64,000 nt of DNA from Bretschneidera sinensis (taxonomy: Eukaryota > Streptophyta > Magnoliopsida > Brassicales > Akaniaceae). The DNA lies in NCBI GenBank assembly GCA_023935145.1, contig CM043698.1, positions 69,610,501 to 69,674,500 on the forward strand, read 5' to 3'. Positions 2,721 to 58,636 of the stretch are shown here, in pieces; positions within the stretch are counted from its first letter, which is position 1; every line of letters starts with the position of its first letter. A model generated the notes under the pieces. That model was not told the DNA's origin. It searched no databases and saw nothing but the letters and a program-made list of their open reading frames with translations. Made by a program: the position numbers and the translations under genes.

Positions 2721-2874
2721 GTGCGATCGATCGCACGAGATATACGATCGAGCGCACCTACCTACGAACGAGTGCATGGTCAACATCCCATATCGAAATA
2801 TTTGCAGTTCAGTGCATCTGCGATCGATCGTAACAGACATGCGATCGATCGCACAATTATGCGATCGATCGCAC
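2721..2874. repeat. Palindrome array GCGATCGATCGC in LTR of A
   Basis: Perfect 16-bp palindrome GTGCGATCGATCGCAC at 2721-2736; variants at 2743-2757 and about 2764-2775; CGATCGATCG at 2821-2830; GCGATCGATCGCAC at 2841-2854 and 2861-2874. The last three are spaced 20 bp apart. The array ends about 55 bp upstream of the TATA box, so it lies in U3. Confidence 0.95.
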
Positions 2875-2928
2875 TCAGGGAAGTATCCTACATCGAATAT
2901 GAAACCTATAGTGCTTCGAGACTCCCCC

Positions 2929-2936
2929 TATATAAA
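2929..2936 (+). promoter_or_regulatory. TATA box of LTR A
   Basis: TATATAAA in the context CCCCCTATATAAACACC, preceded by the palindrome array. It is the best core-promoter match in this LTR. Confidence 0.7.
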
Positions 2937-3740
2937 CACCATCTGACTTCATCATTCGGTGTGCAATTCCTGGGCCATTTGGTGGACGTCTGCTAGCATT
3001 CTGGTGGATCCCGAAGGTTTGGCTACCACGAGGGGAAGCACCTCCCAACAGCAAGTAGAATTTCTCCCTTGTATAGTAAATATTTCTTTTCATTTTGTTT
3101 TGTTTAGTTTAAATGTTTAGCACTTTTATTATGAACTGTAGTTTCGTAACTATGAGTGGCTAGAATCTTTAGCTAAGGTTGAAGAAGAAACCTCGCTGTT
3201 GTTTGGCATATTAGTTTCAGTTTTGTTTCTAACATTTTAGTATAAATGTTCTGTCAATTATTTGAGTAGAATCTTATGATTGATTGTGTTTAGATTGTTA
3301 TGTTGGATATTCTTTATGTTTCATCTGATGGATACATCGAATCGTTTTCGATGAAATTGGATTTCCTTTGTAATTTGTTAAAAGTGGATACATTGGATGC
3401 TTTTGGTTCAATCAGGATTTTCGTTGTTTTTTGTCTTAAGTTGGATTCATAGAATGTTTTGATAGGCTATTGTTAGAACATTGAGATATATGCTTAACTT
3501 CAGTGGGGTGGATTCAGAAAACCTTAGTCTTTTTATCATTTGCTTTAAAAAAACAATTTAGTTTAAGTTTATATTTCTTTTGCAAAAAAATACAAGTCAA
3601 AATTCGGAACTAGGTTAAGATAAGGTTAGTTTAGATGAAATTACATTTTCACAACGCAATTCCCTATGGATTCGACCTCGCACTTGCACAACACTATATT
3701 GCAAACGACTCATACGCTTGCGAGAAATTTAAAACTCACA

Positions 3741-4382
3741 ACAATGTTCATCATGGTAAGCACTAGACTAGACATTGCTCATGCGATGAGTGTTCTCTGC
3801 AGGTTTATGAGTAATCTCAAAAAAGAGCATTGGCTTGGGATGAAGTGGTTGCTAAGGTACTTAAAGGGAAGCATAGATGTGGGGCTGGTTTATGAGAAGA
3901 GGGGTAAATCCATCTGTCTTGAAGGTTATGCAGATTCGGACTATGGAGCAGACCGAGATAAGAGAATATTGATTACCTCCTATTTCTTCAACTTAAACGA
4001 ATGTTGTATAAGTTGGAAGTATCAGTTGCAGCTGGTGGTAGCACTCTCAACAACCGAGGCTGAGTACATAGAGGCTACGGAAGCCATAAAGGAGGTTATG
4101 TGGTGCAAAGGGTTGTTGAAAGAGTTGAAGGTCTTGAAAGAGCAGGTAGTGGTGCATTCGGATAGCCAAAGTGCGTTGCATTTGTGCAAGAATCTGGTGT
4201 TCCATGAAAGGACAAAGCATATGGATGTTCGGTACCATTTCATTCAGGAAAATGTTACAAAAGGATGCATTCATGTGGACAAGGTGGCCACAGAAGAAAA
4301 TCCTGCAGATTTAGGTACTAAAGTTCTACCTCTAAGTAAGTTCAATCATTGCCTTGAACTTCTTAGGATTGGAGTCGGTTGA
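3741..4382 (+). pseudogene. Copia RT C-terminus and RNase H, element F
   Basis: The open frame runs from the fusion point to a stop at 4380-4382. It holds the STRLDIAHAMSVLCRFMSN segment (end of RT), then RNase H with LEGYADSDYGADRD, VALSTTEAEYIEA and VHSDSQSALHLCKN, and a C-terminal segment resembling the NPAD(L)xTK signature. RNase H degrades the RNA strand during reverse transcription. An upstream ATG at 3666 lies inside the LTR of A and is fortuitous. The frame has no internal stop but lacks gag, protease, integrase and most of RT, so it is a fragment. Confidence 0.85.
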
Positions 4383-4521
4383 TATGGTGACTCAAGTTGA
4401 ACTAGGATACTGAGTTCTCTGCACAACGGGTTCGGGTTTAATCGCTTAGACAAAGGTAGAGATTGTTGATATCTGTCTACGAATTAAACAGGAGTTGGAA
4501 TCGTCATCAGGTCATGGGTAG

Positions 4522-4660
4522 GAGCCACGGCCCAGCCTTGGGCGCCGCAGCCCATAGAAAGTCCAGGAAATCACAACCACCATGTGCGCCGCGACTCAAG
4601 GTATACACCCCGTGGCACAGCCCTGTGCGTCGCGGCACAGGCCACCCAAGCCGCGGCCTC
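4522..4660. repeat. GC-rich palindromic patch in LTR of F
   Basis: A run of related GC-rich motifs: GGGCGCCGCAGCCC, GTGCGCCGCGAC, CCCTGTGCGTCGCGGCACAG and AAGCCGCGGCC. Several are self-complementary (for example GCCGCGGC). It sits about 200-340 bp upstream of the TATA box, in U3. The palindromes are less regular than in A or G. Confidence 0.6.
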
Positions 4661-4861
4661 CAGAGTGGCAGCAACTCTCCCACCTTCCAAGCGGCAGCTT
4701 GAAGGCACACCTGAAGGCAATTGTCAACAATCTTCTCCTAGTGCGTGAAGCTTGATCAAAACGCACAGGATCACTTAGAATTGTTGAAGGGCTATGATTG
4801 ATTTGTCCTCAAGATCTAAGGGTTGAGATTGACTTCAAGATTGGTTCAAGAAGTGGTGCAC

Positions 4862-5327: not shown

Positions 5328-6654
5328 TGATATATGATACAACATAAAGAACTCATTCAAACACTTCAATTCTTTACCCTTTCAATTAGGTAGTTCACGA
5401 AAATGGGGACATCTCCCATTTAAATAAATTAGATCCTCTCTTTACCCCTTATCGAGCGAGGTCTCCACTTCTAAGAACAAGGATCTCCTCTCTACCCTTT
5501 ACCAAGCAGAGTTATAACATTTAACACACTAGTACTTCCTCCCTACCGCTTACCGGATGGAATTTACATAACCACTAATTAAATCCATTCATTCCACATT
5601 ACACAATAACAACAAAAGTAATACAACAAATACAAAGCATTCTTGGTAATATAACATTTCAAGACACATTTCATGAACTACTTGTATTCAACATCCCCCA
5701 AATGTATAGATTTTTAATACACAAGTATTGTCTACATGTTTCTCATGCTCTTTAAATCTTTTATTTTATAATATGTAAAATGCTTAAGTCCTTACTAACA
5801 TATACAGTATAATCTAAGCTTTTAATTTCATTCAAGATTTTCATGCTTACTAAGAGTAAGACGATACTCACCTTAGAGGCTAAGCCTTCACTCTCGAATC
5901 ACCTCATTGCCCTTAGAAAAATCCTCAAACACACCTAAAGAATTCATTGATTAAAATTAACCTCCAAGGTGTATACAATAACACACTAATACTCGAGTTA
6001 GGAAATCAAGATCAACTATTTAATTCATCTAATTATCCTTAAGTACTTGTGACATGAAATAAAAATGAGAAATTTGATGTAAAAATCTGAAAACAAGGTT
6101 GCACAGTCGACTGTCTTACCTGTACGGTCGATTGTGAGACTTCCAGAGAGTTTCACAGTCGACTATTTAACTTCACAGTTGAATGTGGGACCTCTAGAGA
6201 GTTTCACAATCGACTGTTTAACTACACAGTCAACTATGGGCTCTCAGAAAGAAAAGAAAATTTGACTATTTAATTTGCACAGTCGACTGTATTAAGGTCC
6301 CGAACTCTCAGCCTCTTCCATAATCGATTGTGCAATCACAACAATCGACTTTCCTAAGGTCTGAAGCTTAGAAATGGGCGAAAATCTAACTTTTTCCTTT
6401 TGAAAACCAAATCAAACCTTCATAAAATTTCAAACACTTTTGAAATACAAGTTTTTCAAGACCTAAATCGATTTCCTACATTACACATAGCAAATCTTTC
6501 AAGTTAGAATCTTCAAATCCACAACCAAGCACAAAATTATTTTCTTCAAACCAAAAAACCTAACCTTTTCTTAAAATCTTTCTTGAACACAATTTAAATA
6601 AAAAATCTTGAAACAAAACTTAAAGAATCTTGAGAGATATGAAAATGAGACAAC
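5328..6654 (-). repeat. 3' LTR of B, outer portion
   Basis: Collinear with about 26,408-27,655 of the other LTR: shared tracts include GATATATGA, the TACCCTTTACC-type repeats, the CACAGTCGACTGT array and the AATCTTGAGAGATA stretch. It stops at 6,654, where solo LTR C was inserted, and resumes at 20,686. Confidence 0.85.
6101..6352. repeat. CACAGTCGACTGTG palindrome array, 3' LTR of B
   Basis: GCACAGTCGACTGT at 6101-6114, then degenerate copies (TACGGTCGATTGTG, TTCACAGTCGACTAT, TTCACAATCGACTGT, CACAGTCAACTAT, GCACAGTCGACTGT at about 6278-6290, ATAATCGATTGTGC). Spacers are about 15-40 bp. Many variants differ at the central CpG. Confidence 0.9.
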
Positions 6655-7640: not shown

Positions 7641-7679
7641 AAACAACGGGGACGTCTCTCATCATAAACAACTAGATCT

Positions 7680-8918
7680 TGATTACTTCCAAAATAGTAA
7701 TGCGGTTGTTGTAGTACGGCTTTGGGGTGTTGATTCCACAGGAAAACAAGTTAACTATAAAGAAATATGTAAACCTTAGTATGAGACGATATAATTAAAA
7801 TAAGTAAAGAATCTGAAATTGATGATGAAGTAATTGTGTAGGTTATAAAATACGATAGAGGGACAACAAGGATCTAGGAATCCTCCCAAGGTTCGTTGCC
7901 CTAATCCTAACTTGATTCAGTTGTTTTTATCTCAATTGCACATTTCACATCCCAAACATGCAATCGGCAAATATTCAATGAGAACATAAATAAACCCTAA
8001 TATGATCGTAATAAAATACTTCTTATTTCCGATTTATGCACATATTATCTATCCTATAGGTTTATCAAGAAACGACAATATATCTTTGTCGATAATATTG
8101 CAGTAATGGACAAACCTAAAGGCTAGATTTATCGGACTCAATTATTCCCAATAATCTTGACATAAGAGAAGCATGACTAAAATTATATCAAGGAAAAAAG
8201 ATACAATCACCGGAATAGATAAAATCTTATAATTAGATAAAGAAGTAAATCATGACAATGTTTAACAATAAATTCTTATTACAACTGAACCAAATAAGGG
8301 TAGATAGGGACAACTACACCTAAGAATTCATCCCTTCGCCTTGCTAGGAAGTTAGTTAGCCATGGTGTTCATGGCTAAACACTTTTTTGGATGAGTTGCT
8401 GCTTTGAGTTTTCTTGCTTTTCTTCTCAGCCAAGATCCCCTTTCTCTTAAACCCCAAGTATCCTATTTATAGTACAAGAGTCCAAGGGTGTTTTTGGGTT
8501 TATTCTAATGTTTAAAAACCCTAATTAAAGTCTAACTCAGAGATGCAAATCCATGTGCGTGCTGCGGTGCTGCTGGGGAGCACCGCGGTGCTAGGCATAT
8601 TCTGGATTGGGCGAGCTTCTGGGCACTACAATGCTGTAGAGGAGCACCGCGATGCTGGCCTCTTTACTGATTTTCTTTATGCTTTGCCTCTCCGCAGCCA
8701 CTCCTATGCTTCATCGTGCATGGAACCTTGGTGCTTTTAAACAATGATCGCTTTTTCTCCTCTTTGGACTCAAAATACCTGAAATTGTACTGGAATAAGT
8801 TTGTGATCCAATAATATTCCTTAAGAGTTATTAACACACAAGAGTGCAATATAGACCGAAAAGAATCATAAAATGCTAACAATTAAACATCGTTGAGGTG
8901 CATTTTTGGCTCTTATCA
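7680..8918 (-). repeat. 3' LTR of element G
   Basis: 1,239 bp, 45 bp shorter than the 5' LTR, mostly because one spacer-plus-palindrome unit is lost from the array at 8,554-8,660. Minus-strand TATA (TATAAATA) at 8,464-8,471. Confidence 0.95.
8554..8660. repeat. AGCACCGCGGTGCT palindrome array, 3' LTR of G
   Basis: Copies include GTGCTGCGGTGCTG, GGAGCACCGCGGTGCTAG, GGGCACTACAATGCTG (all CpGs changed to TpG/CpA relative to the other LTR) and GGAGCACCGCGATGCTGG. It lies upstream of the minus-strand TATA box at 8,464-8,471, in U3. Confidence 0.9.
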
Positions 8919-10501
8919 GAACCTCCAACTAGCTTATTGCTAGTCTCTAGCAATTCAAGTGGAAACAAGAGATGAATTCCATGGTGGGAGTCAAAAACAA
9001 AGTAAAGCGCTACTAGTGTTAACCAAGAGTAATTCACTTTTGTCTCAAACATTGCACACAACATACAACACATAGGATCATTAAATATCACTCAAATCCA
9101 AAAATAATCCAAACATTGATCTTGCATTCGTTATCGACTCTTAACATCCATCTTACCATAATCCAATAATCTGTACACTTGGATGATTTTATGCATCACA
9201 TTCATGAATACAAGTCTTGGTCTCTAAAAACATAACAAATTGTGTGACATCATATTGTAGAAAAATCATATTACATTGGATCAATAGGTCTTTAATAAGC
9301 TTGTAATGTTAGGCTAAGGTAAAGGTTAAGAAAGGATGGAAAGGATTTACAAGTAAAAGAACTCAATCTCTTAGCTTTAAACATAACCACTTTTAAGCAC
9401 TAGATAACCTTACTTTAACATCCAACTTTTTCAACCATTTTTCGAGCATTTTTCTCAAATCACCACTTTTCTTTTCTTTTCTTCTTTCTTTGCCATAATC
9501 CACTTTTCTTTTTCTTTTGTATTTTGGCATAAGACCATTCACCTCTTTTCTTTTTTTTTTAAGGCTTCTTTTCTTTTCCATAACCCCCAACTTATCTCAT
9601 TTAGTGTACTTAGGTTATGGTTTCCATATTTCCATCCTTACTCCTTTTAAGTGCTTCTCAATAAATATGTATAGCTAAGTTCTTTGAAGAGAAAGGTAAG
9701 GATAAAATATTCTCTTTAGGCTCATAAGGGTGAGTAAATGGGCTATTTGAAAGAAACAATGCTCAAATTGGTGACTAGTGGTAAATATAGCAATGGTAGG
9801 TTTTGACAGGCTCAAACAGTCCAAAATGGCCTATATCATTTCCTAAGTAGTGTGCATTCTAGGAATTCGCCTCAAGTGGTTATTAAGTAAGTTCTGGAGC
9901 TTGCCAAGACCGTAAAAATATTCACGAAATAATCACACATAAAAATTTTCTAAGTGCTTAAGATTAATCATACAATCTTACCACAAACTAGAGTCACTAA
10001 CCAAATCAAGGTTGACACTTAAAGTATTTTCGAATTGAAACAAAATTTAACTTCTTCTAAATGCTGTATGTTATCTCAATTAAGCTAATATCATTGACAT
10101 GTGAATTGCATCCAAGGCAAACACAAATCATGCTTAAAACATAAGGTAAGGGAAGGTAACACCAAACAATTTAAAGAAATGTGTTTCCTCCACCCCCAAC
10201 TTAAATTTTTCATTTTCCTTAATGTTTAAAGAGAAAGTAAAGAAAAACTCCCTTTTGTGAGCACGAGTGCATAGGTTCTGGACAATGTGTACTACCAGGT
10301 GAAGTGCTTGCCATTCTTCTTACTGAAATTCCAATCTACAACATAGAACAAGACAACAAAAAGAAAACAACTTTGGTGTACCCTTAAGATTCTCACCATA
10401 TGTTAGGTTAGTACAGAAAATAAAATAAAAAGAAATAAAGGAGGAAAGTAAAAATAACCAAAATGAAAACACACTAAACAAACAAAATAAAGGACCTAAA
10501 A
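8919..10501 (-). other. 3' noncoding region of element G
   Basis: Between the env-position ORF and the 3' LTR. No credible gene; a short K/R-rich reading frame at 9,393-9,590 is only a purine-rich low-complexity tract. Two extra polypurine-like motifs (minus strand AAGTTGGGGGT near 10,187-10,197 and 9,586-9,594) resemble the tract at the LTR edge (AGTTGGAGGTTC, 8,919-8,930). Confidence 0.65.
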
Positions 10502-11662
10502 CTAATCCTCTAAATTTTCATCCTCCTCTTTATCCTCTTCATTCTCTTCACCTTCTTCAGGAGTGGGATCAAAAAATGAACCCGGATAGGGTGGCATAGT
10601 AGGGAAGTGATCTATATTACAACCAGTAACGGAGGTAAGGTGGTGGCATATCTGACCAAAAGAAGAGTAGACCCCGGCTTGATAATCGACCTGCTGAGCC
10701 AAGAATCTGTCTTGCCGAGCCAATATTTTGTCTTGACGATCTATCCTATCAAGCAACAATTTCTGATGCTCATCAAAACGACTCTCTAGATGCTTAAGGC
10801 GCTCGACAATAGTGAAAGCCCTTGAGGAAGAAGGATGGTGACTATAGGCTGCTCCCTCTCCCAGAATTGGCGGCCTTGAGGCTTTAATCTATGCTAACAA
10901 GCTATCATCAATGGGTCTTTTGGGTTCCTGGGCCTCTTCATCAGGGCTGTATTGGACTCCAGCTCGGATGCATAATTAGGTTATTAAAGAAGGAAAATAT
11001 AATCAGAGCTTTTGTCTAATACTGTGTTTGATTGAATCATGTATGACTTGGCCGACATCGATAGTCATTCCCATTAAAATTGCATAGGCTAACACAGCTC
11101 GCTCAACAGTTAAGGCACTATAAGGTAAAGCAGGCATCATCCTCTGACATATAAAATATTGCCAAGCCCTAGCAGTGGCATTGAGAGAAGTACCGAGCAA
11201 AGTGACAGGGAGATCACCCGTCATTTTCCATGTAGTGCCCAGAATACAAAAGGTAGTGCAAATCTCTTCATAATTGATGGTGGACATATATAAACTATAC
11301 TCACTATGCTTAATGTCAGGTAATCCATAGAAGTTATTAATGGATGTGCTGCTAAAAGAGACTATTTGTCCTCTCACTCTCATTTCACCATTTCTATGCT
11401 CGGGCGCATTTGCGTAAAATTCTCTAACCAAATTTGGGAGGGAGTGAGAAGGTTGTCTTGTAAATGTGCCCCAACTCCTATCTAGAATCATTCTAAATAA
11501 GGTCGGATTTCCCTTCTCGGTGATGTTGAATCCTCTTTTAGGAATGGGTTTTTGACTTTGCAACATACTAATATATCTCTCACTTGCTTCAAAACTCAAA
11601 AATTTTGTCTCATCATACTATTTTTGTGGTCTCCCCCTGGGTCTCTTGGTCTTAGGTGCCAT
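10502..11662 (-). pseudogene. Athila extra 3' ORF (env position), AT-hook/coiled-coil protein
   Basis: One minus-strand frame from ATG (11,660-11,662) to a stop at 10,502, about 386 codons, interrupted by four stops (near 11,618, 11,003, 10,976 and 10,890) but no frameshift. The N-terminus is basic, with KRPRGRPQK, a close match to an AT-hook. The middle (about residues 22-218) resembles the plant transposon-associated domain found in Athila-type extra ORFs. Then follow a coiled-coil-like stretch (ERLKHLESRFDEHQKLLLDR) and an acidic tail (EEGEENEEDKEEDE). I see no signal peptide or membrane helix, so an envelope role is not supported. It lies 0.7 kb after the pol stop and has its own TATA box at 12,022-12,029. 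Function unknown; DNA or chromatin binding is an inference. Confidence 0.75.
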
Positions 11663-17860: not shown

Positions 17861-18649
17861 AAATTTGATTACGCCCGAAACAGTAACGCTGTTGTTGTAG
17901 CATGGCTTTGGGGTGTCGATTCCACAGGGAAACAAGTTAACTATAAAGAAAGATGTAAACCTTAATATGAGACGATATAATTAAAATAAGTAAATAATCT
18001 AAAATTGATGATGAAGTAATTGTGTAAGTTGTAAAATACGATAGAGGGACAACAAGGATCCAGGAATCCTCCCTAGGTTCGTTGCCCTAATCCTAACTTG
18101 ATTTAGTTGTTTTTATCTCGATTGCACGTTTCACATCCCAAACATGCAATCGACAAATATTCAATGAGAACATGTATAAACCCTAATATAATTGTAATGA
18201 AATACTTCTTATTTCCAATTTATGCACATATAATCTATCCTATAGGTTTATCAAGAAACGACAATATATCTTTGTCGAAAATATTGCAGTAATGGACAAA
18301 CCTAAAGGCTAGATTTACTGAACTCAATTATAGCCAATAATCTTAACATAAGAGAAGTATGACTAAAGTTATATCAAGGAAAAAAGATACAATCACCGGA
18401 ATAGATAAAATCTTATAATTAGATAAAGAAGTAAATCATGACAATGTTTGATAATAAATTCTTATTACAACTTAACCAAATAAGGGTAGATAGGGACAAC
18501 TACACCTAAGGATTCATCCCTTCACCTTGCTAGGAAGTTAGTTAGCCATGGTGTTCATGGCTAAACACTTTTGTGGATGAGCTGCTGCTTTGAGTTTTCT
18601 AGCTTTTCTTCTCAGCCAAGATCCCCTTTTTCTTAAACATCAAGTATCC

Positions 18650-18657
18650 TATTTATA
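18650..18657 (-). promoter_or_regulatory. TATA box of 5' LTR of G
   Basis: Minus-strand TATAAATA in TACTATAAATAGG, about 85 bp downstream (sense) of the palindrome array. Confidence 0.7.
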
Positions 18658-18740
18658 GTACAAGAGTCCAAGGGTGTTTTTGGCTTTATTCTAATGTTTA
18701 AAAATCCTAATTAAAGTCTAACTCAGAGATACAAATCTGT

Positions 18741-18890
18741 GTGCGCGCTGCGGTGCTGTTGGGGAGCACCGCAGTGCTAGGCATATTCTGGATTGGGCGA
18801 GCTTCTGGGCACCGCGGTGCTGGCTGGTTATTCACAATGAGCGAGTTTCTGGGCACCGCGGTGCTGCTGAGGAGCACCGCGGTGCTGGCC
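18741..18890. repeat. AGCACCGCGGTGCT palindrome array, 5' LTR of G
   Basis: Units GCGCTGCGGTGCTG, GGAGCACCGCAGTGCTAG, GGGCACCGCGGTGCTGG, GGGCACCGCGGTGCTG and the perfect 14-bp palindrome AGCACCGCGGTGCT at 18,872-18,885. Two units share the longer flank GCGAG(C/T)TTCTGGGCACC, evidence of internal duplication. Confidence 0.95.
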
Positions 18891-19149
18891 TTTTTGCTGA
18901 TTTTCTTCATGCTTTGCCTCTCCGCAGCCACTCCCATGCTTCGTCGTGCATGGAACCTTGGTGCTTTTAAACAACAATCGCTTCTTCTCCTCTTTGGACT
19001 CAAACTACCTGAAATTATACTGGAATAAGTTAGTGATCCAATAATATTCCTTAAGAGTTATCAACACACAAGAGTGCAATATAGACCGAGAGGAATCATA
19101 AAATGCTAACAATTAAACATCGTTGAGGTGCATTTTATGGCTCTTATCA

Positions 19150-19325
19150 GATCTCCTCCCTACCCTTTACCGGGTAGAAACTTGGATCTTCTTCCAATCC
19201 TTTGCCAGGTGGAGTCCTTACAATTAGTAACTTGGATCTCCTCTCTACCCCTTGCCGGGTGGAGTCCTTACATTTAAACTAATAGGATCCCTCCTTACCC
19301 CTTACTGGGTGGAGTCCCAACAATT
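19150..19325. repeat. ~50-bp minisatellite in solo LTR C
   Basis: Four copies of GGATCTCCTCYCTACCCYTTRCCGGGTGGAGTCC type, with variable ~15-bp tails. Related single copies occur at 5,430-5,570 and 26,510-26,590 in the LTRs of B. The core CTACCCTTTACCGGGTAG folds on itself. G inserted in the first copy (GATCT). Confidence 0.8.
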
Positions 19326-19837
19326 ACATAATTATTCTATTCAGTTCACATTATCACAATATCAACAAAAAAAAAATTCATAACATGTGCAAAGCATTCA
19401 CAAAATTATAGTTTCTTATGTATAAGTTCAATAAATCAAATACATCGTAACATCTTTCAAACAAATAAATTTCAACATACTAATCTTATTATGAGTGTCT
19501 CTTACTCCTTTAATATTTTGTCTATAATAGGTATATATATATATATATATATATATAAAGCTTTAAATTTCATTTAATATTCTTACACTTACTGGAAGTA
19601 AGGTGATACTCACCTCTTTGCACTAAGTTTAATCCCAACTCACTTCCTTTCCTCTTGATTAAACTCCAAAATATCCCAGCAACACAACAAATATTTATCA
19701 TAACCCAACATAGGTAATTAGAATTTAATCACTTCAAATCAAAGGCCTACAACTTTCAACTAACCCATTATGTCATCCTCTAACACTTAGGATTGAAAAG
19801 GACAAGAGTTGAAAACCTAAAAACTAAAAATAAGGCT

Positions 19838-19992
19838 ACATAGTCTACAGTTTTCATCATACAGTTGACTGTGAAGTCCTTTGGAAGACAACACAGTCGA
19901 CCATCCAAATACACAATTGATTGTGTTGTTGACATGAAGCTTTTGTCCCTCGCACAGTCAACTGTGAAATTTGGACAATCAATTGTCCTGAG
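19838..19992. repeat. CACAGTCGACTGTG palindrome array in solo LTR C
   Basis: Degenerate copies: ATAGTCTACAGTT, ACAGTTGACTGTG, CACAGTCGACCAT, ACAATTGATTGTG, CACAGTCAACTGTG, ACAATCAATTGTC. Same motif as in B, with most central CpGs lost. Confidence 0.85.
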
Positions 19993-20685
19993 GGCTAAAG
20001 CCCAAAAACAACACGAAAACTCCCTCTTTTTCTTCCCAAAACCCATAGATCTTCCATAAAACTTCACATCCTTTAAAACCAAAGTTCCCTCAAGCTTAAA
20101 GTTGAATATTTTACAATACCCACATCAATTTTTTTACTTAAAACTCTTGAAACACTCAAATCAAGCATAAACCCATTTTTTAGAACCAAAACTTGTTTTT
20201 CATCAAAGATTCTTCAAAAACCCTATTTCAAGAATTCCAATCTTCAATCTAATGAACATACCTAACAAAATAAAACAATTCTTACCTTCCTTATGGGTTT
20301 TTTCCTTCTTTTTTTTCCTCCATTTTTCCTTTTTTTTTCATTCTTCTTCTTTTTTCTCTCTTTCTCTCCTCTCTTTCGGTGGTTCTAGAGAATTCCAGCA
20401 CATTGTGCTGGTTTTTCTCCCCCTCCACTCATATTTATAGAATAAACTCTCTTATTTGCATACCAAGCCTCCAACTCTTCTTTTCTTTTAAAATTCACTC
20501 CAAAACTCTTTAAAATCCCAACTCTTACCTAGCTTTCCTTATTACCTTTCATGGAAAAAAAAAATTATTCCTCCAAAACTTATGCTTAATTACAATATAG
20601 ATTTACTTAAATACATCGAAAATTTCCCAAAAAAAAATTCCATAAATTAAAATAGTCTAATTAAAATATCGGGTCTTACAATAAC

Positions 20686-21017
20686 TTACTTGAGATCTTT
20701 GCACATGAACTCTCCAAAATCAAAGGAAAAAGAGAAAAGAAAAGGCTAGGCTTTGTCTTGAAAGGAAAAAGAGGAGTTGAAAATGAATATCTATCTCATC
20801 CTTTTTATATTTATACTACACACAAAAATAAAATGACTAGGTTACACCTTGCCCCCTTAAAACCTTGTAACATTATAATTAGACCCCAAATTAAACTTTT
20901 TTTTCTCACAACTCCCTAACCAATTAACTCATAACTAATTATTAATGTCTAAAAAATACACACAATAAATTTAATAGGCCACTAAAATAATTAAATCAAA
21001 AGAAGACAAGCTCTACA
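20686..21017 (-). repeat. 3' LTR of B, inner portion
   Basis: Matches about 27,656-27,984 of the 5' LTR (CTTTGCACATGAACTCTCCAAAATCAAAGG region, minus-strand TATA, terminal CTCTACA). It directly adjoins the B internal region. Confidence 0.85.
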
Positions 21018-27770: not shown

Positions 27771-27778
27771 TATTTATA
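27771..27778 (-). promoter_or_regulatory. TATA box of LTR B
   Basis: Minus-strand TATAAATA in AGTATAAATAGAAAAAGG, about 210 bp inside the LTR. Confidence 0.65.
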
Positions 27779-39788: not shown

Positions 39789-39800
39789 TGGTATCAGAGC
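39789..39800 (+). other. Primer-binding site of copia E
   Basis: TGGTATCAGAGC directly after the 5' LTR, a perfect initiator tRNA-Met complement. Confidence 0.95.
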
Positions 39801-39866
39801 TGAACTGATCCCTATCAAAAAAAAAATTGAGAGAAAACCAGAGAGTCCCTATCACAACCAAACACC

Positions 39867-42800
39867 ATGTCTGATCTTTCAGGTGAAAACACTTCCAAAA
39901 GCCCTGAAACAAACCCCTCACTACAAATCACCTCACAAAAGCTGAATGGCCAGAACTATCTACCATGGTCCCGATCTGTCACCATGTTTGTCTGAGGTCG
40001 AGGGAGATACGGCTATCTCTCGGGCACCACTACAGCCCCGCCAGAATCAGATCCTTCATACCCTACTTGGGAGGCCGAAAACTCCATATTGATGGCCTGG
40101 TTGATCAACTCTATGGAACCAGATATAGGTCGATTATATCTGTTTCTTCCTACTGCCAAAGCCATATGGGAAGCCGCTGCCGAAACTTACTCTGATGCTG
40201 GTAATGCTGCACAGCTGTTTGAGGTTACTCAACGGATTCGCCGAATCAGACAAGGAGAGCTCTCAGTCACTCAATACTACAGCATTCTCAAAGGTCTGTG
40301 GCAAGAGGCTGATCAATATCGACAGGCGAAATGGGAGTGTGTTGCTGACAGTACGCTGTACAGCAAGATGCTTGAACAAGAGCGCATCTTTGAGTTTCTG
40401 ACTGGCCTCAACCTAGACTTAGACGATGTGCGAGGACGAATAATTGGAAAAGAACCCCTGCCTTCCATTCCCCAAGTCTTTGCTGCTATTCGCCGGGAAG
40501 AAAGCTGCCGATTCGTGATGATGGGGGGAAATCAGCCCACTCTACCTATCGATAAATCTGCGCTGGCTACTGACTCTGCTCTAACAACTCAGCAGCGTTA
40601 CAATCGAAGGAGTGACAACAGACGCCCTTGGTGTGACCATTGTCACAAAGTCGGTCATACCAAAGAAACCTGTTGGAAGCTGCATGGAAAACCAGCGCAC
40701 CTGAAGAACAATAAGCCAGCCGAGAGCAATAATCGTGCTCTTCATGTCACTGAAGACACCCAGTCCGTTCATTCAAGCTCGCAAACTGGTTCTCAAGACT
40801 CAGTCATCTCCAAGGAGCAATGGAATCTTCTTCAGGACCTGATTCGGAAGACCAAATTGCCAGCTGCATCCACTCCTAATCCATCTTGCTCCTTAGCAGG
40901 TATGACAAACAACTCTCGCGTACCTTGGATAATAGATTCAGGAGCGTCTGACCACATGACTGGTTTATCTAATCTGTTTATCTCCTATTCTCCTTTTCCG
41001 GGTTATATCAAAGTGAGAATAGCCGATGGATCTCTATCAGCCATAGCAGGAAAAGGAAAAATTCCTATCTCTCAAAATCTTGCTCTCAATTTTGTGTTAC
41101 ATGTTCCCAATCTTACCTGTAATTTGTTTTCTGTGAGCAAATTTACTAAAGACCAAAACTGTGTTGCTAACTTTTATCCTACCTATTGTGAGTTTCAGGA
41201 CTTGATCTCGGGTAAGAGGATTGGCAGTGCTAGGTTGGAGAATGGTCTGTATTATTTTGAAGAAGGATCAAGCTTAGGTAGACAAGTTCAAGTCGCAAAT
41301 AAAGCCTCCACTTCTCTTGAAGAAGATAACATCATGTTATGGCACCGTAAATTAGGACATCCCAGTTTTCGTTATTTAGCAAAATTGTTTTCTGTTTTAT
41401 TTTCTAATAAAGATCCTTCTCTATTTCAATGTGAGATTTGTGAACTTGCAAAACATCACAGAGCACTTTTTCGCTCAAAAATTTATGAAAAATTTTTGTC
41501 TTTCAATCTTATTCATAGTGATCTTTGGGGTCCATCCCGTGTTTCAAATATTTCGGGTACAAGATGGTTTATATCTTTTATTGATGATCATACTCGTTTA
41601 ACATGGATATATCTCTTAAAAGACAAATCTGAAACGTTTCAGTGCTTTCAAAATTTTTATAACATGATTAAAACCCAATTTGGTGTTTCTATTCAACTCT
41701 TTCGAACGGATAATAGTCGTGAATATTTCTCTAATGTACTTGGCAATTTCTTATCTGAAAAAGGAGTCATTCATCAATCCTCATGTGTCGATAGTCCTCA
41801 ACAAAATGGTCTCGCCGAAAGAAAAAATCGGCATCTCTTAGAAGTGGCTAGGGCATTAATGTTCACTTATCAAGTTCCAAAATATCTTTGGGGGGAAGCT
41901 GTTTTGACTGCTGCATACTTAATTAATCGTATACCATCTAAAGTTCTTAATTTTCAAACACCTATTCAAATATTTCAAAAATTCTATCCAAATACAAAGT
42001 TATTACATTCTTTACCCCTAAAAACATTTGGTTGTCAAGCCTTTGTCCATATTCACAGTCAATTTCGAAGCAAACTTGACCCTAAGGCCATTAAGTGTGT
42101 ATTTTTGGGCTACTCTCCTACTCAAAAAGGATATAAGTGTTTTGATCCAATCTCTAAAAAATTCTTTGTGTCAGTTGATGTCACTTTTTTTGAAAATCTT
42201 CCTTATTTCTCCAAAACTAATCTTCAGGGGGAGCTAAGCTCACAATTCGAATCAGAAGCTGAATTTTGGGAATCAGAATCAGCAGAATCAGTTCCAAATA
42301 TCTCTCCGCTTCAAAATTCAAATGAGTCCCACATCTCTCCAAATATCTCTCCAGTTCAAAATTTGAATGACACCCAAACTTCTCCATCTATCTCTCTAAA
42401 CCCAAACTCAAATTCAGATCTTTCAGTTCCTCAAAAAAATCAGCAAACTGAAAATTTACAAAATCCTAGGAACGCGGCAGATATTTCTCCAAAAACTCCA
42501 AAACATCATGTCCCAATCCCGGTGCTAGAAAATCGCAAAGAGGGGGAGGAGTCTAACTGCCCTGAACTTCGTGTCTATATAAGGCGGAAAAATCCTAACA
42601 GGATAATGCAGACCGTTCAGCCCATACCAATACTGCCCTATCCTTTAGCCAAGATTAAGGATTCAAACGCAAAAGGTAATGATCTAAATCTACCCATAGC
42701 AACCAGAAAAGGAGTAAGAACCTGCACACAACATCCCATTGCTAAATACACATCATATCACAGATTATCTCCTGCCTATTTGTCCTTTGCTCTCAATCTG

Positions 42801-44351
42801 GCTTCTGTAGAAATACCCGGGAATATTGAAGAAGCTTTGGGGAAACAAGAGTGGTGTGTGGCTGTAATGGAGGAGATGAAGGCATTGGAAAAAACTGGAA
42901 ACTGGGAGATTGTTAAATCGATAGAAGGCAAGGTTCCTGTTGGCTGTAAGTGGGTTTTCACTCTCAAATACAAGGCTGATGGATCGATTGACCATTACAA
43001 AGCACGGCTGGTTGCCAAAGGGTACACACAGACTTACATCATCGACTACCAAGAGACCTTTGCACCCGTAGCAAAGATGAACACAATCAGAGTGATCATG
43101 TCCATAGCTGCAAATCAAGATTGGCCACTCCACCAGCTTGACGTAAAAAATGCTTTTCTCAATGGAGAGCTAGTAGAAGAGGTCTATATGTCACTCCCCC
43201 CAGGATTTGAGAAACACTACGGAAAGGACAGCGTATGCCGATTAAAAAGATCACTATACGGTCTGAAGCAATCACCAAGGGCCTGGTTTGACAGATTTTC
43301 AAGAGCAATCAAAGGTTTCGGGTTTGCACAAAGTCAAGCTGATCACACACTGTTTCTGAAGTATTCGGCAGGGAGAATCACTGTGTTAATCGTATATGTT
43401 GACGACATAATAGTGACAGGTAATGACAGTAAAGGTGTTCAGGAGGTTAAGGAGTATCTTGGGAAGGAATTCGAAATCAAAGATCTTGGACATTTGAAGT
43501 ATTTCTTAGGGATGGAAGTAGCAAGATCAAAATCGGGTATTGCAGTCACGCAAAGGAAGTATACACTAGATCTACTCAAGGAGGTCGGAATGCTAGGATG
43601 CAGGCCTAGTGAGGTTCCCATTGAACCAAACTTCAAACTGCAAGTTAGTGGAGACAAGAAACAGACCAATAAGGAGAGATATCAACGACTAGTCAGGAAA
43701 CTCATTTATCTATCCCACACTAGACCCGATATCGCCTTCTCGGTTAGTGTGGTCAGTCAACACATGCATTCTCCAACAAATGAACATCTGGAAGCTGTGT
43801 ATAAGATTTTAAGGTATTTGAAGAGAACACCTGGTAGAGGATTGCTTTTTACTAATAAGCACCCATTGAAGATTGAAGCTTATACAGATTCAGATTAGGC
43901 TAGATGTATCAATGACAGGAGGTCAACGACGGGTTTCTGTACATATGTGGCAGGTAATCTGGTCACTTGGCGAAGTAAAAAGCAAACTGTTGTGGCGCAA
44001 AGCAGTGCTGAGGCAGAATTCAGGACTGCAGCTCAAGGTATATGTGAACTGTTGTGGCTTAAAAAACTAGTCGAAGAAATGGGTATCAAGGTTGAAGGAC
44101 CTATGAAGCTTTACTGCGACAACAAGGCAACAATTAACATTTGTCACAATCCTGTTCAACATGACAGGACGAAACATGTTGAAATTGATAGACATTTCAT
44201 TAAGGAGAAGTTAGAAGAAGGAGTTGTCTGTATGCCTTACATCCCTACAAAGGAACAGCTAGCTGATTTGTTTACAAAAGGGTTGCAGAAACAGACATTC
44301 GAAGACTTAGTGAGCAAGCTGGGTCTTTACGATGTGTACGAACCAGCTTGA
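39867..44351 (+). pseudogene. gag-pol polyprotein of copia E, two nonsense codons
   Basis: One frame of 1,494 codons from ATG 39,867 to the stop at 44,351, with only two in-frame stops: TGA at 39,993-39,995 (codon 43) and TAG at 43,896-43,898 (codon 1344). Relatives would have Arg and Trp there, so each could be a single G:C-to-A:T change. Domains in order: gag (LNGQNYLPWSRSV near residue 35); CCHC knuckle CDHCHKVGHTKETC (about 256-270); protease IIDSGASDHM (about 357); LWHRKLGH pre-integrase (about 491); integrase with HSDLWG, FRTDNSREY and NGLAERKNR (about 550-650); RT with QLDVKNAFLNGE and VYVDDIIVTG (about 1025-1190); RNase H with SSAEAEFRT and YCDNKATINI (about 1335-1470). Copia order is integrase before RT, as seen. 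Confidence 0.95.
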
Positions 44352-44359
44352 GGGGGAGT
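44351..44359 (+). other. Polypurine tract of copia E
   Basis: GAGGGGGAG directly before the 3' LTR, overlapping the pol stop codon. Confidence 0.85.
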
Positions 44360-44578
44360 GTGGGAAAACACGTGTAATTCTAGGAGTGCTGTGTAGATAT
44401 TTTTAAATTTGAATTTAAATAGAACCTTGTATATAGGAGTTATCCTAGGAATTAGTTGTGTAACTAATATTCTGATTTCAAATCTGATTGTTATCAAGTT
44501 AGGTTTATCCCTTTAAATAGGGGTACCTTGTACACTTTACGATGAATGAATGAAACATTCAGTTTCTCCAATTCTACA
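44360..44578 (+). repeat. 3' LTR of copia E
   Basis: About 219 bp, TGTGGG...TCTACA, followed by the GTTTC target duplication. Confidence 0.97.
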
Positions 44579-51875: not shown

Positions 51876-52314
51876 TGTCATGACCCGCGTGAGACCTGTG
51901 TGTTCGAGGGTTTCCTAGTACACTTTGAGATTATAATGTACAGCATTGTATTGCACGTGCATTGTGGGGTAGTACCTTGTACTTCCGTACTACACTTGTA
52001 GTACACTTGTACTACACTTTTAGTACTGTCAGATTGTGACACTTGGCAAAATGTTAGCCATAGATATAAGGGAGCTCTCCCTATATAAAGGGTTTTCCCC
52101 TTCACTTGTAAATCATTCATTCATTCAAGCAATAGCAAGCTCTCTAGCTTTGTCTCATATTCTCTCTCTTGTGTTGGCTATTTTCTTTGAGTGGGTCTAG
52201 CTTCGAGGGTGGTTCTCTTGAGTAGCCAAGAGGAAGGCTGACTTAGGCATTCTAATGAGGTGTTTCCGAGCTTAAGGCCGAATGGTTAGCGACTTAAGCT
52301 TGTAGTCCGTGACA
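51876..52314 (+). repeat. 5' LTR of D
   Basis: TGTCATGACCCGCG...GTCCGTGACA, 439 bp. TATATAAA at 52,082-52,089; palindromic GTAC cluster at 51,971-52,028. Confidence 0.95.
51971..52028. repeat. GTAC palindrome cluster, 5' LTR of D
   Basis: TGTAGTACACTTGTACTACA at 51,997-52,016 is a perfect inverted repeat (8-bp arms, 4-bp loop), flanked by AGTACCTTGTACTTCCGTAC and TTAGTACT. It lies about 55-110 bp upstream of the TATA box. The copy in the 3' LTR is at 58,291-58,350. Confidence 0.85.
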
Positions 52315-53941: not shown

Positions 53942-55280
53942 GTGAGAAGGGATGAAGTCATCTACCTGGCCACCTTGAAACTGGAAGAGGTTCTAAAGTC
54001 CAAGGAAGAGACTCTTCTTGAGGTACTTGAGCTGTTAGAGTCATCTGTTTATGTGATGCCCCCGGAATTGCCCAAGAAACTCTCACCTAAGAGAGAGGTG
54101 GATCATAAGATCGAGTTGGTATCTACTACCCAACCACCAGCCAAGGCTCTATACCGAATGTCGCCTCCCCAGCTTGAAGAATTAAGGAGACAACTTAAGG
54201 AGTTGGTTGATGCGGGATTTGTGCGACCTTCCAAGGCACCCTATGGAGCATTGGTTTTGTTCCAACAGAAGCACGATGGTTTGATGAGGATGTGTATCGA
54301 TTATAGAGCCCTTAACAAGCTCATGGTGAAGAACAAGCTCCCATCCCACTCATTGCAGACTATATCAGATGGTTGACCAAGCTAGATTTAAGATCGGGGT
54401 ACTACCAAGTCCAGATAGCCTAGAGGGTGAGCCAAAGACAACGTGTGTCACACACTATGGTTCTTACAAGTTTCTTGTGATGCCTTTTGGACTCACCAAT
54501 GCTCCAGCAACTTTCTGCACTTTAATGAATAAGGTACTCCAACCCTTCCTAGATCGCTTAGTGGTTGTTTACCTTGACGATATTGTTATCTATAGTCAAT
54601 CTCTAGAGGAGCATGTGGGGCACTTGAGACAGGTATTCCAAGTTTTGAGAGAGAATGAGCTCTATATAAAGAAAAAGAAGTGCTCATTCGCTCAACATGA
54701 GGTACCATTCTTTGGCCACATAGTAGGTGGAGGAAAGATTCGGATGGATGAGGGCAAGATTCAGGCCATTGTTGATTGGCAGCCACCGACCAAAGTTACT
54801 GAGTTGAGATCATTCCTTAGGTTGGTGAACTATTATCTGTGTTTTATCAGAGGCTACTCAACCATCACCACACCCTTGACAGATATGCTCAAGAAGGGAA
54901 GAGTGTGGGAATGAAGTTCAGTATGTCACGGGCCTTTGAGCAGCTGAAATGAGCAATCACAGAAGAGCCGGTCCTAGGCCTACCAAATCACAACAAGCCT
55001 TATGAGGTCCACACGGATTCATCCAACTTTGCTATTGGAGGGGTCTTGATGCAAGATGGTCATCCAATTGCTTTTGAGAACCGAAAGCTCAATGAGACCG
55101 AGCGACGGTACACGGTTCAAGAGAAAGAGATGATAGCCATGGTTCATTGCTTGCACATATGGAGAAACTAGTTTTTGGGGTCTAAGTTTGTGGTAAAGAC
55201 CGACAATATGGCCACAAGCTACTTTCAGACTCAAAAGAAGCTCTCTCCCAAGCAAACCCGATGGCAAGATTTCCTTGCCG
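53942..55280 (+). pseudogene. Reverse transcriptase and RNase H of D
   Basis: RT: DAGFVRPSKAPYGALVLFQQ and [18 protein letters not shown], then a frameshift near 54,370, then [17 protein letters not shown], active site [12 protein letters not shown] (about 54,570) and [17 protein letters not shown]. RNase H (about 55,010-55,280): VHTDSSNFAIGGVLMQDGHP, YTVQEKEMIAMVHCL (near 55,110-55,155), a stop in place of a residue after HIWRN, then FVVKTDNMATSYF. It then runs into the first duplicated unit. Confidence 0.88.
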
Positions 55281-56620
55281 AGTTTGATTTTGTGTTGGAG
55301 TATAAGCAAGGGAAAACCAACATAGTAGCGGATGCATTAAGCTGAAAGGTAGAGTTTGTTGCCATTAACCGACCACAATGGTCTTTGACGGATCGCATTA
55401 AGGAGGGATTGTCCTATGACCCGACCGCCAACTCTTTGATAGAGTATACCACAAAGGGGAAGACAAGAAGGTTCTGGCTCGAGGGAGACTTGCTCTATAC
55501 CAAGGGGAATCGATTATATGTGCCATTTCATGAGAAGTTATGGAAGGAGGTGATGCAAGAGTGCCACGATTCAAGGTGGGCTGGTCACCCAAGTGTACAC
55601 CGCACCCTAGCACTTGTGGAGGAGCGCTACTACTGGCCACACTTGAGAGATGACATTGAGACCTATGTGAAGACTTATCTTATGTGTCAACAAAACAAAG
55701 TAGAGCAAAAGTCACTTGGGGGTCTGTTAGAGCCGTTGCCAATTCCAGAGCATCCATGGGAGAGTCTCTCCATGGATTTCATTATAGGGCTACCCAAAAG
55801 TGATGGATTTGGAAGCATCATGGTTTTGGTGGACCGGTTTTCGAAGTATGGGACTTTCATTTCTGCTACCAAAGAGTGTCCAGCAGAAGAGGCAGCCCAG
55901 TTATTTCTCAAGCATGTGGTAAAGTATTGGGGTGTACCACAGTCTATTATTAGTGATCAGGATGGACAGTTCACGGGATGGTTCTGGACAGAATTGTTCA
56001 AGTTGCTTGGATCGGATCTAAACTTCTCCACTAGTGTCCACCCCCAAATTGACGGACAGATTAAGAGGGTGAATGCTTTGTTAGAGATATACCTCCGATA
56101 CTATATGAGTCCCTCGCAACAAGATTGGCCAAAGTTACTAGATGTGGCTCAGTTTTCCTATAATTTGCAAATGAGTAAGGCCACCAACCAAAGTACCTTC
56201 GAGATTGTGATGGGACGACAGCCTCTCACTTGAGTACTATTCCTGTAGGATACACGGGGTCAACTCCAATAGCCTATAAGTTTGCTAAGGTGCGGCAAGA
56301 GTAAACCGACTTAGCTCGAGTTTGCCTAAACAAGGTAGCCAAGCGTTCAAAGAAGTGGGCTGATTGTAAGAGACGAGGGTGCAGTACCAAGTGGGAGATT
56401 TTGTGCTTGTGAAGCTATATTTGGTACTTCACACTAAGGGGATCCATAAAGCATTGGTGCGCAAACATAAGGGGCTTTTCAGAGTTCTTCAGAGGGTAGG
56501 CAATGTGGCCTACAAAATTGAGCTACCATCCAAGCTCAAGGTGCACCCGGTCTTCCATGTGAGTATGTTGAAACCATTCTATGAAGACCAAGATGATCCA
56601 GATCGAGGTGAGTCACAGCG
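55281..56620 (+). pseudogene. Integrase region of D, tandem copy 1
   Basis: A 1,340-bp unit running from the RNase H end (FDFVLEYKQGKTNIVADALS, then a stop) through the whole integrase: zinc-binding CHDSRWAGHPSVHRTLALVE...CQQNKVEQK, core WESLSMDFIIGLPKSDGF, SIISDQDGQFTGWFWTELFK, HPQIDGQIKRVNALLE, to the C-terminal part with GNVAYKIELPSKLKVHPVFH. In this copy the core is open for 282 codons, then a 1-nt loss after GRQPLT shifts the frame. Expected catalytic acidic residues are present in the first two positions; the Glu position reads Lys (GQIKRVN versus GQIERVN in copy 2). Confidence 0.9.
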
Positions 56621-57960
56621 AGTTTGATTTTGTGTTGGAGTATAAGCCAGAGAAGACCAACACAGTAGCGGATACATTAAGCCAAAAGGTAGAGTTTGTT
56701 GCTATTAACCGACTACAGGGGTCTTTGGCGGATCGTATTAAGGAGGGATTGTCCCATGACCCGACCGCCAACTCTTTGATAGAGTATACCACAAAGGGAA
56801 AGACAAGAAGGTTCTAGCTAGAGGGAGACTTGCTCTATACCAAGGGGAATTGGTTATATGTGCCACTTCATGGAAAGTTATGGAAGGAGGTGATGCAAGA
56901 GTGCCACGATTCAAAGTGGGCTAGTCACCCAGGTGTACACCGCACCCTAGCACTTATGGAGGAACATTACTACTGTCCACACTTGAGAGATGACATTGAG
57001 ACCTATATGAACACTTGTATTGTGTGTCAACAAGACAAAGTAGAGCAAAAGTTACTTGGGAGTCTGTTGGAGCTGTTGCCAATTTCGAAGCGTCCATGGG
57101 AGAGTCTCTCCATGGATTTCATTATGGGGCTACCCAAAAGTGATGGATTTAGGAGCATCATGGTTTTGGTGGACCGATTCTCGAAGTATAGGACTTTCAT
57201 TTCGGCTACCAAATAGTGTCCAGCAGAGGAGGCAGCCCAGTTATTTCTCAAGCATGTGGTAAAGTATTGGGGTGTACCACAGTCTATTATTAATGATCAG
57301 GATGGACAGTTCACGGGATGGTTCTAGACAGAATTATTCAAGTTGCTTGGATCGAATCTAAACTTCACCACTAGTATCCACCCCCAAATTGACGGACAGA
57401 TTGAGAGGGTGAATGCTTTGTTGGAGACATACCTCCGATACTATGTGAGTGCCTCGCAACGAGATTGGCCGAAGTTACTAGATGTGGCTCAGTTTTCCTA
57501 TAATTTGCAAAGAAGTAAGGCCACCAACCAAAGTGCCTTCGAGATTGTGATGGGACGACAGCCACTCACTCTGAGTACTATTGATGTAGGATACACGGGG
57601 TCAACTCCAGTAGCTTATAAGTTTGCCAAGGCACGGCAAGAGCAAACCGACTTGGCTCGAGTTTGCCTAAACAAGGCAGCTAAAAGTTCCAAGAAGTGGG
57701 CTGATTGTAAGAGATGGGGGTGCAGTACCAAGTGGGGGATTTTGTGCTTGTAAAGCTACATTTGGTACTTCGCACTAAGGGGATCAATAAAGCATTGGTG
57801 CGCAGATATAAGGGGCTTTTCAGAGTTCTTCGGAGGGTAGGCAATGTGGCCTACAAAATTGAGCTACCATCCAAGCTCAAAGTGCACCCGGTCTTCCATG
57901 TGAGTATGTTGAAACCATTCCATGAGACCAAGTTGATCCGGATCGAGGTGAGTCACAGCG
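56621..57960 (+). pseudogene. Integrase region of D, tandem copy 2
   Basis: A direct repeat of 55,281-56,620 with the same 1,340-bp period, joined at CGAG (…CACAGCG|AGTTTGATT). It has its own stops (TAG near 56,816, 57,214 and 57,326) but retains the third catalytic position as Glu (GQIERVNALLETYLRYY) and continues past the GRQPLTL point where copy 1 shifts. The copies differ by several percent, somewhat less than or similar to the LTRs. Confidence 0.92.
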
Positions 57961-58159
57961 AGCCCCTATAGGAGTTAGGGTCTCCTATGACCAAGACATT
58001 GAGAGCATACTGGTCGACCGAGTTTTGAGATGGAAGAACTATAAGCCGAGGCAAGAGTACTTGATACGATGGAAGGGACAACCCGATACTGAGACTAATT
58101 GGGAACCAGCTGAGGCTTTGTGGTAATTTCAGAGAAAGATCGATCAGTTTCATGCCTAG
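57961..58159 (+). pseudogene. Chromodomain of D
   Basis: Reads GVRVSYDQDIESILVDRVLR, then WKNYKPRQEYLIRWKGQPDT and NWEPAEALW, then a TAA where relatives have Gln, and FQRKIDQFHA to the stop at 58,157-58,159. The aromatic positions of the fold (Y/W in EYLIRWKG, W in NWEP) are kept. Chromodomains tether chromovirus integrase to chromatin. Confidence 0.9.
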
Positions 58160-58185
58160 AATGCGACGAGGGCATCGCCAGATTG

Positions 58186-58197
58186 AGTGGGGGAGAA
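58186..58197 (+). other. Polypurine tract of D
   Basis: AGTGGGGGAGAA directly before the 3' LTR. Confidence 0.85.
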
Positions 58198-58636
58198 TGT
58201 CAAGACCCGCGTGAGACCCGTGTGTTCGAGGGTTTCCTAGTACACTTTGTGATTATAATGTACAACATTGTGCTACACATGCACTGTGGGGTAGTACCTT
58301 GTACTTTCGTACTACACTTGTAGTACACTTGTACTACACGTTTAGTACCGTAGGATTGTGACACTTGGTAAGATATTAGCCATAGATGTAAGAGAGCTCT
58401 CCCTATATAAAAGGTCTTCCCACTCACTTGCAAATCATTCATTCATTCAAGCAATAGCAAACTCTTTAGCTTTATCTCATATTCTCTCTCTTGTGTTGGC
58501 TATTTTCTTTGAGTAGGTCTAGCTTTGAGGACAGTTCTCTTGAGTAGCTAAGAGGAAGGCTGACTTAGGCATTCCAATGAGGTGTTTCCGAGCCTAAGGC
58601 TATATGTTTAGCGACTTAAGCTTGCAGCCCGTGACA
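58198..58636 (+). repeat. 3' LTR of D
   Basis: TGTCAAGACCCGCG...GCCCGTGACA, 439 bp; TATATAAA at 58,404-58,411; perfect GTAC inverted repeat at 58,319-58,338, identical to that in the 5' LTR despite about 9% divergence elsewhere. Confidence 0.95.

Follow-up and report, generated by a model that had tools for sequence, protein, structure and literature searches.

Long terminal repeat (LTR) retrotransposons of the Sirevirus lineage (Ty1/copia) are known for palindromic repeated motifs, the RM boxes, that precede both the TATA box and env (Bousios et al., 2010, PMC2829016). A CGG-CCG core is found in 12 of the 13 published boxes, and the available part of that paper terms them Sirevirus-specific and absent from classic retrotransposons (PMC2829016). 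Small-RNA hotspots have been placed at Sirevirus palindromes (Bousios et al., 2016, as cited in PMC10760457 and PMC5311732), and the VANC targets of VANDAL transposons are family-specific arrays of short motifs in non-coding DNA of transposable elements (TEs; PMC5735166, PMC10398659). Here we describe arrays of short palindromes in gypsy and copia LTRs of Bretschneidera sinensis (Brassicales) and, in certain elements, ahead of gag or env-like open reading frames (ORFs) as well. They were followed in a 64,000-nucleotide stretch of contig CM043698.1 (assembly GCA_023935145.1, positions 69,610,501 to 69,674,500; hereafter the window) and in fetched loci (L-numbers). A sequence-only reading of the window knew of no named system that covers such arrays; the RM boxes are in fact of the same kind.

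Like RM boxes, the arrays consist of repeated dyad-symmetric palindromes, conserved against divergent flanks, that lie ahead of the TATA box within the upstream half of the LTR. Some Sireviruses have a second cluster upstream of env (PMC2829016), and the same layout is seen in L059, the only locus with an env-adjacent array. In this minus-strand copia element, GAG-pre-integrase, integrase and RVT_2 ORFs are followed by an 11-site array (L059:3269-3583, between reverse transcriptase/RNase H and env-like ORFs) and then by the env-like ORFs, with another array in the LTR about 95-255 bp upstream of TATATAA. Given its RVT_2 domain and features of the lineage, we take L059 to be Sirevirus-like. Since it shares the RM-box layout, the arrays are not a new kind. 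The Tnd-1 RM box, ACAATCGATTGT, even occurs inside sites of L049 and L042. RM boxes come in at least 8 copies per element (PMC2829016). Here the copies, counted per array and not over whole elements, number 9 in elements B and C of the window, 11 in L049 and in the second L059 array, and fewer in A (5-7 among its copies), G (5) and F (7).

Differences concern lineage, core and arrangement. Sireviruses are Ty1/copia, whereas the present arrays also occur in Ty3/gypsy (A, C and G); the Sirevirus core is mostly CGG-CCG, whereas the cores found here are centred on TCGA or CCGCGG (ATCGAT/CTCGAG, GTCGAC and CCGCGG); the available text on RM boxes reports neither a spacing rule nor symmetric change between related elements (PMC2829016); and the second arrays of L036 and L052 lie in the leader near gag, not near env. 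New here are the arrays in gypsy elements (Athila-like A and G, chromovirus C), the core CAGTCGACTG shared by a Sirevirus-like copia and a chromovirus, the spacing of sites by multiples of about 10.5 bp in arrays with this core (B-type) and the symmetric change of their flanks. Among titles and abstract beginnings of the open-licence literature we found no paper that deals with phased palindromes in the LTRs of gypsy elements.

U3 enhancer repeats, for instance the Tnt1 boxes, are repeated activator sites in the LTR promoter region, which the present arrays, as putative regulatory sites, resemble. PMC2829016 notes that Tnt1 box I has symmetry. The palindromes of Bousios et al. (2016) likewise form clusters of highly variable sequence in the LTR regulatory region, but in the available text they are tied to secondary structure and small RNAs (PMC10760457, PMC5311732). 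VANC targets share with them the family-specific arrays of short motifs in non-coding DNA and the turnover of repeats, yet the B-type core is common to different families. The VANDAL motifs are YAGTATTAY and AGTTGTCC/AC, their binder is known and TE-encoded, and the word palindrome is absent from the available text of PMC5735166 and PMC10398659. The short interrupted repeat cassettes (SIRC) of Arabidopsis, direct repeats of 10-29 bp with diverse spacers, some palindromic and many with matches in LTR/Gypsy, differ in that the available text gives no LTR position or spacing rule and leaves about 57% without palindromes (PMC10342631). Palindromes at integration targets were considered and rejected, as they concern 20 bp around insertion sites and not arrays within LTRs (PMC6911290, in its available part).

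Elements of the window were delimited through LTR pairs, ORFs and domains, and lineage names combine Pfam hits with features of the lineages. On the plus strand, the Athila-like A (LTR 2544-3744, boundaries read from the sequence) lies downstream of pol (1-1180) with an integrase (rve) domain, PF00665. Its array (2721-2873) has six sites of TGCGATCGATCGCA type, the first being GTGCGATCGATCGCAC at 2721-2736, followed by TATATAA at 2929. F, the 3' end and LTR of a copia element (+), has seven degenerate GC-rich GCCGCGGC-like sites (at most 2 of 8 positions mismatched) at 4524-4698 and TATATAA at 4862. The minus-strand gypsy element G (Athila/Tat-like, domains RVT_1 and RT_RNaseH; LTRs 7679-8920 and 17865-19151) carries five sites of AGCACCGCGGTGCT type at 18744-18886, with TATAAATA at 18657. 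Its second LTR, 45 bp shorter and without some sites of the other, has three at 8558-8656, and each array has one weaker outlier further off. Nine sites of CACAGTCGACTGTG type occur both in the chromovirus C (minus strand, LTR 25893-27985, array 27123-27354), whose RVP_2, RVT_1 and SH3_Tf2-1 domains mark it as gypsy, and in B, a minus-strand LTR piece of the C family that lacks the LTR start (array 6102-6353). A decayed array with five such sites (19839-19966, minus strand) lies in the LTR-like stretch 19150-21020. D (+, LTRs 51876-52314 and 58198-58636) has alternating 8-mers with an 11-bp tandem period, TGTAGTAC/GTACTACA at 51968-52026, with TATATAA at 52082, and GTACTACA/TGTAGTAC at 58290-58348. 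In both D arrays GTAC is repeated many times within 60 bp; GTAC is the core of SBP/SPL (copper-response) sites.

A direct site scan thus recovered the motifs of A, G, B/C, D and F where the sequence-only reading had placed them. That the motif differs between lineages is true of A, G, F and D, but not of B/C, whose core also occurs in Sirevirus-like copia. The repeated motif is a palindrome with dyad symmetry in A, B/C, G, L049, L051, L059 and L060; for D and F this is unclear. As had been claimed for four of the six elements, the TATA box follows the array in A, G, D and F, as it also does in L036, L050, L052, L059 and L060. The B piece contains only the counterpart (5770) of the second, weaker TATA-like box of C.

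Palindrome arrays are real and common in this genome (1.21 Gb in 550 contigs). When 12-bp quasi-palindromes were counted in each array segment and compared with the mean of 200 dinucleotide shuffles, A had 5 vs 1.1, B 4 vs 0.6, C 6 vs 0.7 and G 4 vs 0.8, counts that none of the 200 shuffles reached. The expected excess over shuffles was not found in D (1 vs 0.5), F (2 vs 0.85) or the decayed array (0 vs 0.4), all at chance level. Over whole LTRs the excess was clear in A (8 vs 2.4) and C (9 vs 3.0; 0/200 shuffles as high for both), smaller in the B piece (5 vs 1.8, 11/200) and G (6 vs 2.8, 17/200), and slight in the second G LTR (4 vs 2.5, a count reached by 51/200); the whole LTRs of D and F and the stretch 19150-21020 showed none. 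Six pol or other stretches gave no clear excess either, their counts being reached by 6 to 48 of 50 shuffles. We also used an array detector, which takes 14-mers with at least 6 of 7 arm pairs and at least four G or C, and asks for at least three copies (at most three mismatches) within 250 bp. It found 4 arrays in the window and 10 in 20 random 7-kb stretches, as against 0, 0, 0, 2 and 0 in five shuffles of the same 204 kb. Three further stretches, outside the shuffled set, added 4, so that the random sample, drawn from contigs C1, C2 and C4-C9 only, holds 14 arrays in 8 of 23 stretches (161 kb). Palindromic words were about 30 times likelier to anchor arrays: in the window and the first 20 stretches, 12 of 27 perfect 14-mers (7/7 arm matches) did so, 36 of 214 with 6/7 and 54 of 1655 with 5/7, against 2239 of 152441 words (1.5%) with 0-4 matches. 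Left out of the array count were the 10-mer hits GGCGTACGCC (L053) and GTTCATGAAC (L058), and L042, which was picked up with 12-mers only. The L053 hit belongs to a GC-rich insert (L053:2814-2990) with GGCGTACGCC-like palindromes, by eye beside a copia reverse transcriptase-like stretch.

Arrays recur in other members of the families to different degrees. In the A family, 5-7 sites are present in all 30 fetched genomic copies (the best-scoring ones, namely 29 besides that of the window), always upstream of TATATAA (TATAAAA in L030); the place in the LTR is kept and array length differs by units of 16-20 bp. A-LTR copies in L050 are about 80% alike. In L002, an LTR copy of the C family (80% alike over 2251 aligned bases) retains its array, and a G LTR relative (L053:5318-6597, 79% alike) keeps six decayed sites. 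Four relatives of F (L037, L045, L038 and L004) have degenerate GCCGCGGC-like sites with at most 2 of 8 mismatches, counted without a shuffle comparison; for D no relative was found among the fetched loci. Two Athila relatives, L036 (a relative of A that also aligns with the G pol) and L052, have their LTR motif arrayed once more in the 5' leader, 1.1-1.2 kb past the TATA box (L036:5123-5198 and L052:2408-2486), that of L052 ending about 50 bases ahead of the gag open frame. By eye, the preceding sequence resembles a splice acceptor (tttgtttag). In a viral contig collection, a protein scan gave no plant relatives, and three contigs matched by two array patterns (L055-L057; 67, 40 and 69% GC) were judged to be non-plant.

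The commonest centre-to-centre distance between sites of an array is 20-22 bp, and most spacers therefore measure 6-8 bp, followed by about 17, 27 and 37 bp, at variance with the 15-40 bp first proposed. Successive distances are 21, 20, 56, 21 and 20 bp in A; 21, 31, 20, 31, 20, 53, 41 and 21 bp in B; 21, 31, 31, 20, 32, 21, 41 and 21 bp in C; 21, 32, 20 and 41 bp in the decayed array; 21, 43, 44 and 21 bp in G; and 20, 44, 21, 20, 21 and 41 bp in F. The tandem periods given by TRF are 20 bp at A, 51 at B, 31 at C and 11 at D. In B-type arrays, 46 of 49 adjacent distances fall within 1.5 bp of a multiple of 10.5 (the misses being 38, 25 and 46), where about one third would be expected if distances were uniform between 15 and 56 bp. 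This holds for the chromovirus group (26/27, with distances of 20-21, 31-32, 41-43 and 53 bp) and for the others (20/22). L059 and L060, fetched after the rule had been noted, gave 22 phased distances out of 25 (null mean 8.6, as many in 0 of 20000 simulations); these combine the 14-mer scan with a core scan, and core-scan distances for the fourth array give 21/24. L002-L004, picked for an exact 14-mer match, entered the phasing, covariation and information counts and stood outside the random-sample counts; L042 entered the phasing and covariation counts, and L001, having a single site, contributes no distance. The step of two helical turns is shared across types, full phasing being established for the B-type only.

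Within the sites, the motif is conserved while the surrounding sequence varies freely. Information per position is 1.35 bits inside vs 0.22 in the flanks for 53 B-type sites, 1.73 vs 0.17 for 46 A-type sites and 1.90 vs 0.98 for 8 G sites, most of them duplicates; choosing sites at no more than four mismatches raises the inner values. An A site consists of two half-sites TGCG(A/C)TC. A B-type site is CAGTC|GACTG plus a flanking pair that varies by family: A-T in C, B, L002-L004, L042, L049, the left LTR-like stretch and the second L060 array, C-G in both L059 arrays and the first L060 array, and T-A in L051. This pair is complementary in 73 of 80 sites, where shuffling among all sites expects 39.6 (0/2000 as high). 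The compensatory change between arms that the sequence-only reading had suggested looking for is thus present between families and uninformative within arrays. L049 and L060, 75.9% alike over 639 bp starting 31-41 bp from their arrays, carry arrays of GACAGTCGACTGTC and CCCAGTCGACTGGG/T there. The flanks of the C LTR have no match at E 0.01 to L049, L051, L059 or L060, and the C array itself has short matches to L049 only.

How might these arrays work? A dimeric DNA-binding factor would explain the dyad symmetry, the free spacers, the helical register of the B-type and the paired change of half-sites, and among the readings first offered, sites for dimeric regulators is the best supported. We thus consider it reasonably likely that the arrays are clusters of putative, dyad-symmetric binding sites for a dimeric, sequence-specific factor acting on the transcription or chromatin of the retrotransposons; protein binding, the dimeric state of the factor and its action are what we infer. 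Such a factor would read each 10-14 bp site as two inverted half-sites. In B-type arrays, adjacent sites are separated by 2, 3, 4 or 5 helical turns and so share one face of the helix, an arrangement to be expected if bound dimers were in contact with one another or with a common partner. Given that a chromovirus and Sirevirus-like copia have the B-type core in common, without detected similarity of the flanks, a factor acting in trans on both lineages, most simply a host factor, appears more likely than an element-encoded one.

Several observations weigh against binding by a dimeric factor. In C, the first TATA-like box of the LTR (27778) comes 424-655 bp ahead of the array, and a weaker box (TATAAAAT, 26798) follows about 325 bp past the array, so that the promoter of C is uncertain. 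Outside the B-type, phasing is not strict: A-type arrays also show distances of 16, 18 and 56-57 bp, with 25 of 34 near multiples of 10.5 but 3 of 7 distinct ones (across the 30 A copies, 91 of 146 distances are 20-21 bp and 22 are 16 bp), while G has 3/4 and F with L037 7/11. The uniform null for phasing is a simple one, and distances within an array are not independent because arrays grow by duplication. Shuffling within arrays already yields 71.3 complementary pairs of 80 (338/2000 reach 73), and symmetry is therefore a family-level property with few independent events, based on just three pair types. The next pair outward covaries more weakly (31/80 vs 23.1, 57/2000) and the two outermost not at all (15 vs 21.2; 29 vs 28.0). 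Substitution rates among the 30 A copies (CpG transitions 0.072 in sites and 0.123 in spacers, non-CpG transversions 0.013 and 0.012) are confounded by composition and repeat alignment. We set this comparison aside as proof, C>T and G>A being equal in sites (44 and 46) and non-CpG transversions equal in sites and spacers. Finally, the arrays could also form strong RNA hairpins.

The latter property leads to a different view, in which the palindromes work as hairpins of RNA or single-stranded DNA, copies 20-22 bp apart forming a 14-bp stem with a loop of 6-8 nucleotides that would either give rise to small RNAs for silencing, as has been suggested for Sireviruses of maize, or help the element RNA to dimerise or to be packaged. 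The small-RNA hotspots reported at palindromes of Sireviruses fit this view, and the C array, downstream of its first TATA-like box, and the leader arrays of L036 and L052 would fall in the 5' part of the transcript. The folding potential is real: six of eight pieces fold far below their shuffles (z -3.9 for A, -5.7 for C, -4.2 for G, -5.6 for L059, -4.2 for L052 and -8.2 for L049), whereas D (z -1.6, 13/200) and F (z -1.4, 18/200) fold not clearly better. Yet hairpins need complementarity between copies and not one motif with free spacers, although palindromic copies supply that complementarity automatically. We set folding aside as proof, as it does not discriminate between the readings. What does is spacing, since a loop of 6-8 nucleotides accounts for the 20-22 bp step but gives no reason for distances of 31, 42 and 52 bp, and helical register does. 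The hairpin modules suggested by the sequence-only reading are, in this role, improbable.

If a dimeric factor is involved, it may alternatively be encoded by the elements themselves, the additional ORFs (aORFs) of Athila, Tekay and Sirevirus binding their own arrays in an anti-silencing role like that of VANC. G offers a candidate, a minus-strand ORF (11003-11617) between pol and the 3' LTR, in the env position of an Athila-type 3' aORF, with PF20167 (Transposase_32, E 1.7e-33) and six homologues in the database, 54-59% identical; according to the available part of PMC11728184, aORFs with predicted nuclear localisation occur in Athila (PF20167) and Tekay elements of sunflower. The arrays targeted by VANC are a precedent, but their motifs are not palindromic in the available text (PMC5735166, PMC10398659). 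One of the env-like ORFs beside the 11-site L059 array hits PF20167 weakly (E 0.0025; 18.2 bits, where the cut-off is 45), but profile comparison with the G ORF family gave no match, and a structure model of the G ORF was useless (AlphaFold, mean pLDDT 38.8). Given also that one core serves a chromovirus and a Sirevirus-like copia, we regard an element-encoded reader as unlikely. Only a little less doubtful, and offered tentatively, is a broader picture: one cis-regulatory code of helically phased palindrome arrays across Athila, chromovirus and Sirevirus, read by fast-diversifying dimeric factors (host or element-encoded, VANC-like), from which families would escape or specialise by joint change of half-sites, with the additional ORFs as candidate readers. 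That the arrays are instead non-functional tandem expansions, with palindromes that arose when quasi-palindromes underwent template-switch repair and then multiplied through slippage, agrees with the unit changes of 16-20 bp among A copies and of about 45 bp between the G LTRs and with the TRF periods, but is very improbable, as neutral growth gives no reason for the roughly 30-fold preference for palindromes as anchors, the A and B motifs are kept while spacers are unconstrained, unrelated elements have the same core, the place in the LTR is kept among A copies and families differ symmetrically.

Other features of the window are less directly connected to the arrays. A young copia element (39569-44578), with 220-bp LTRs 99% identical and a stop-free frame of 1300 codons, has no palindrome array in its LTR. 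The LTR-like ends of the chromovirus element (19150-21020 and 25893-27985) match well over about 340 bp only, the remainder of the left one being far diverged, and the element may therefore be a recombinant or two elements. Within D, a tandem duplication of about 1.34 kb (55279-57962, 92.6% alike) spans the integrase region.

Should the arrays indeed be binding sites, the control regions of LTRs, scattered and poorly alignable, would become a readable code. Motif, spacing and place would be comparable across families and plants, and the factor would be retrievable with a defined bait. Two old questions would thereby become testable, namely what reads the Sirevirus boxes and what role the additional ORFs of Athila and Tekay play.

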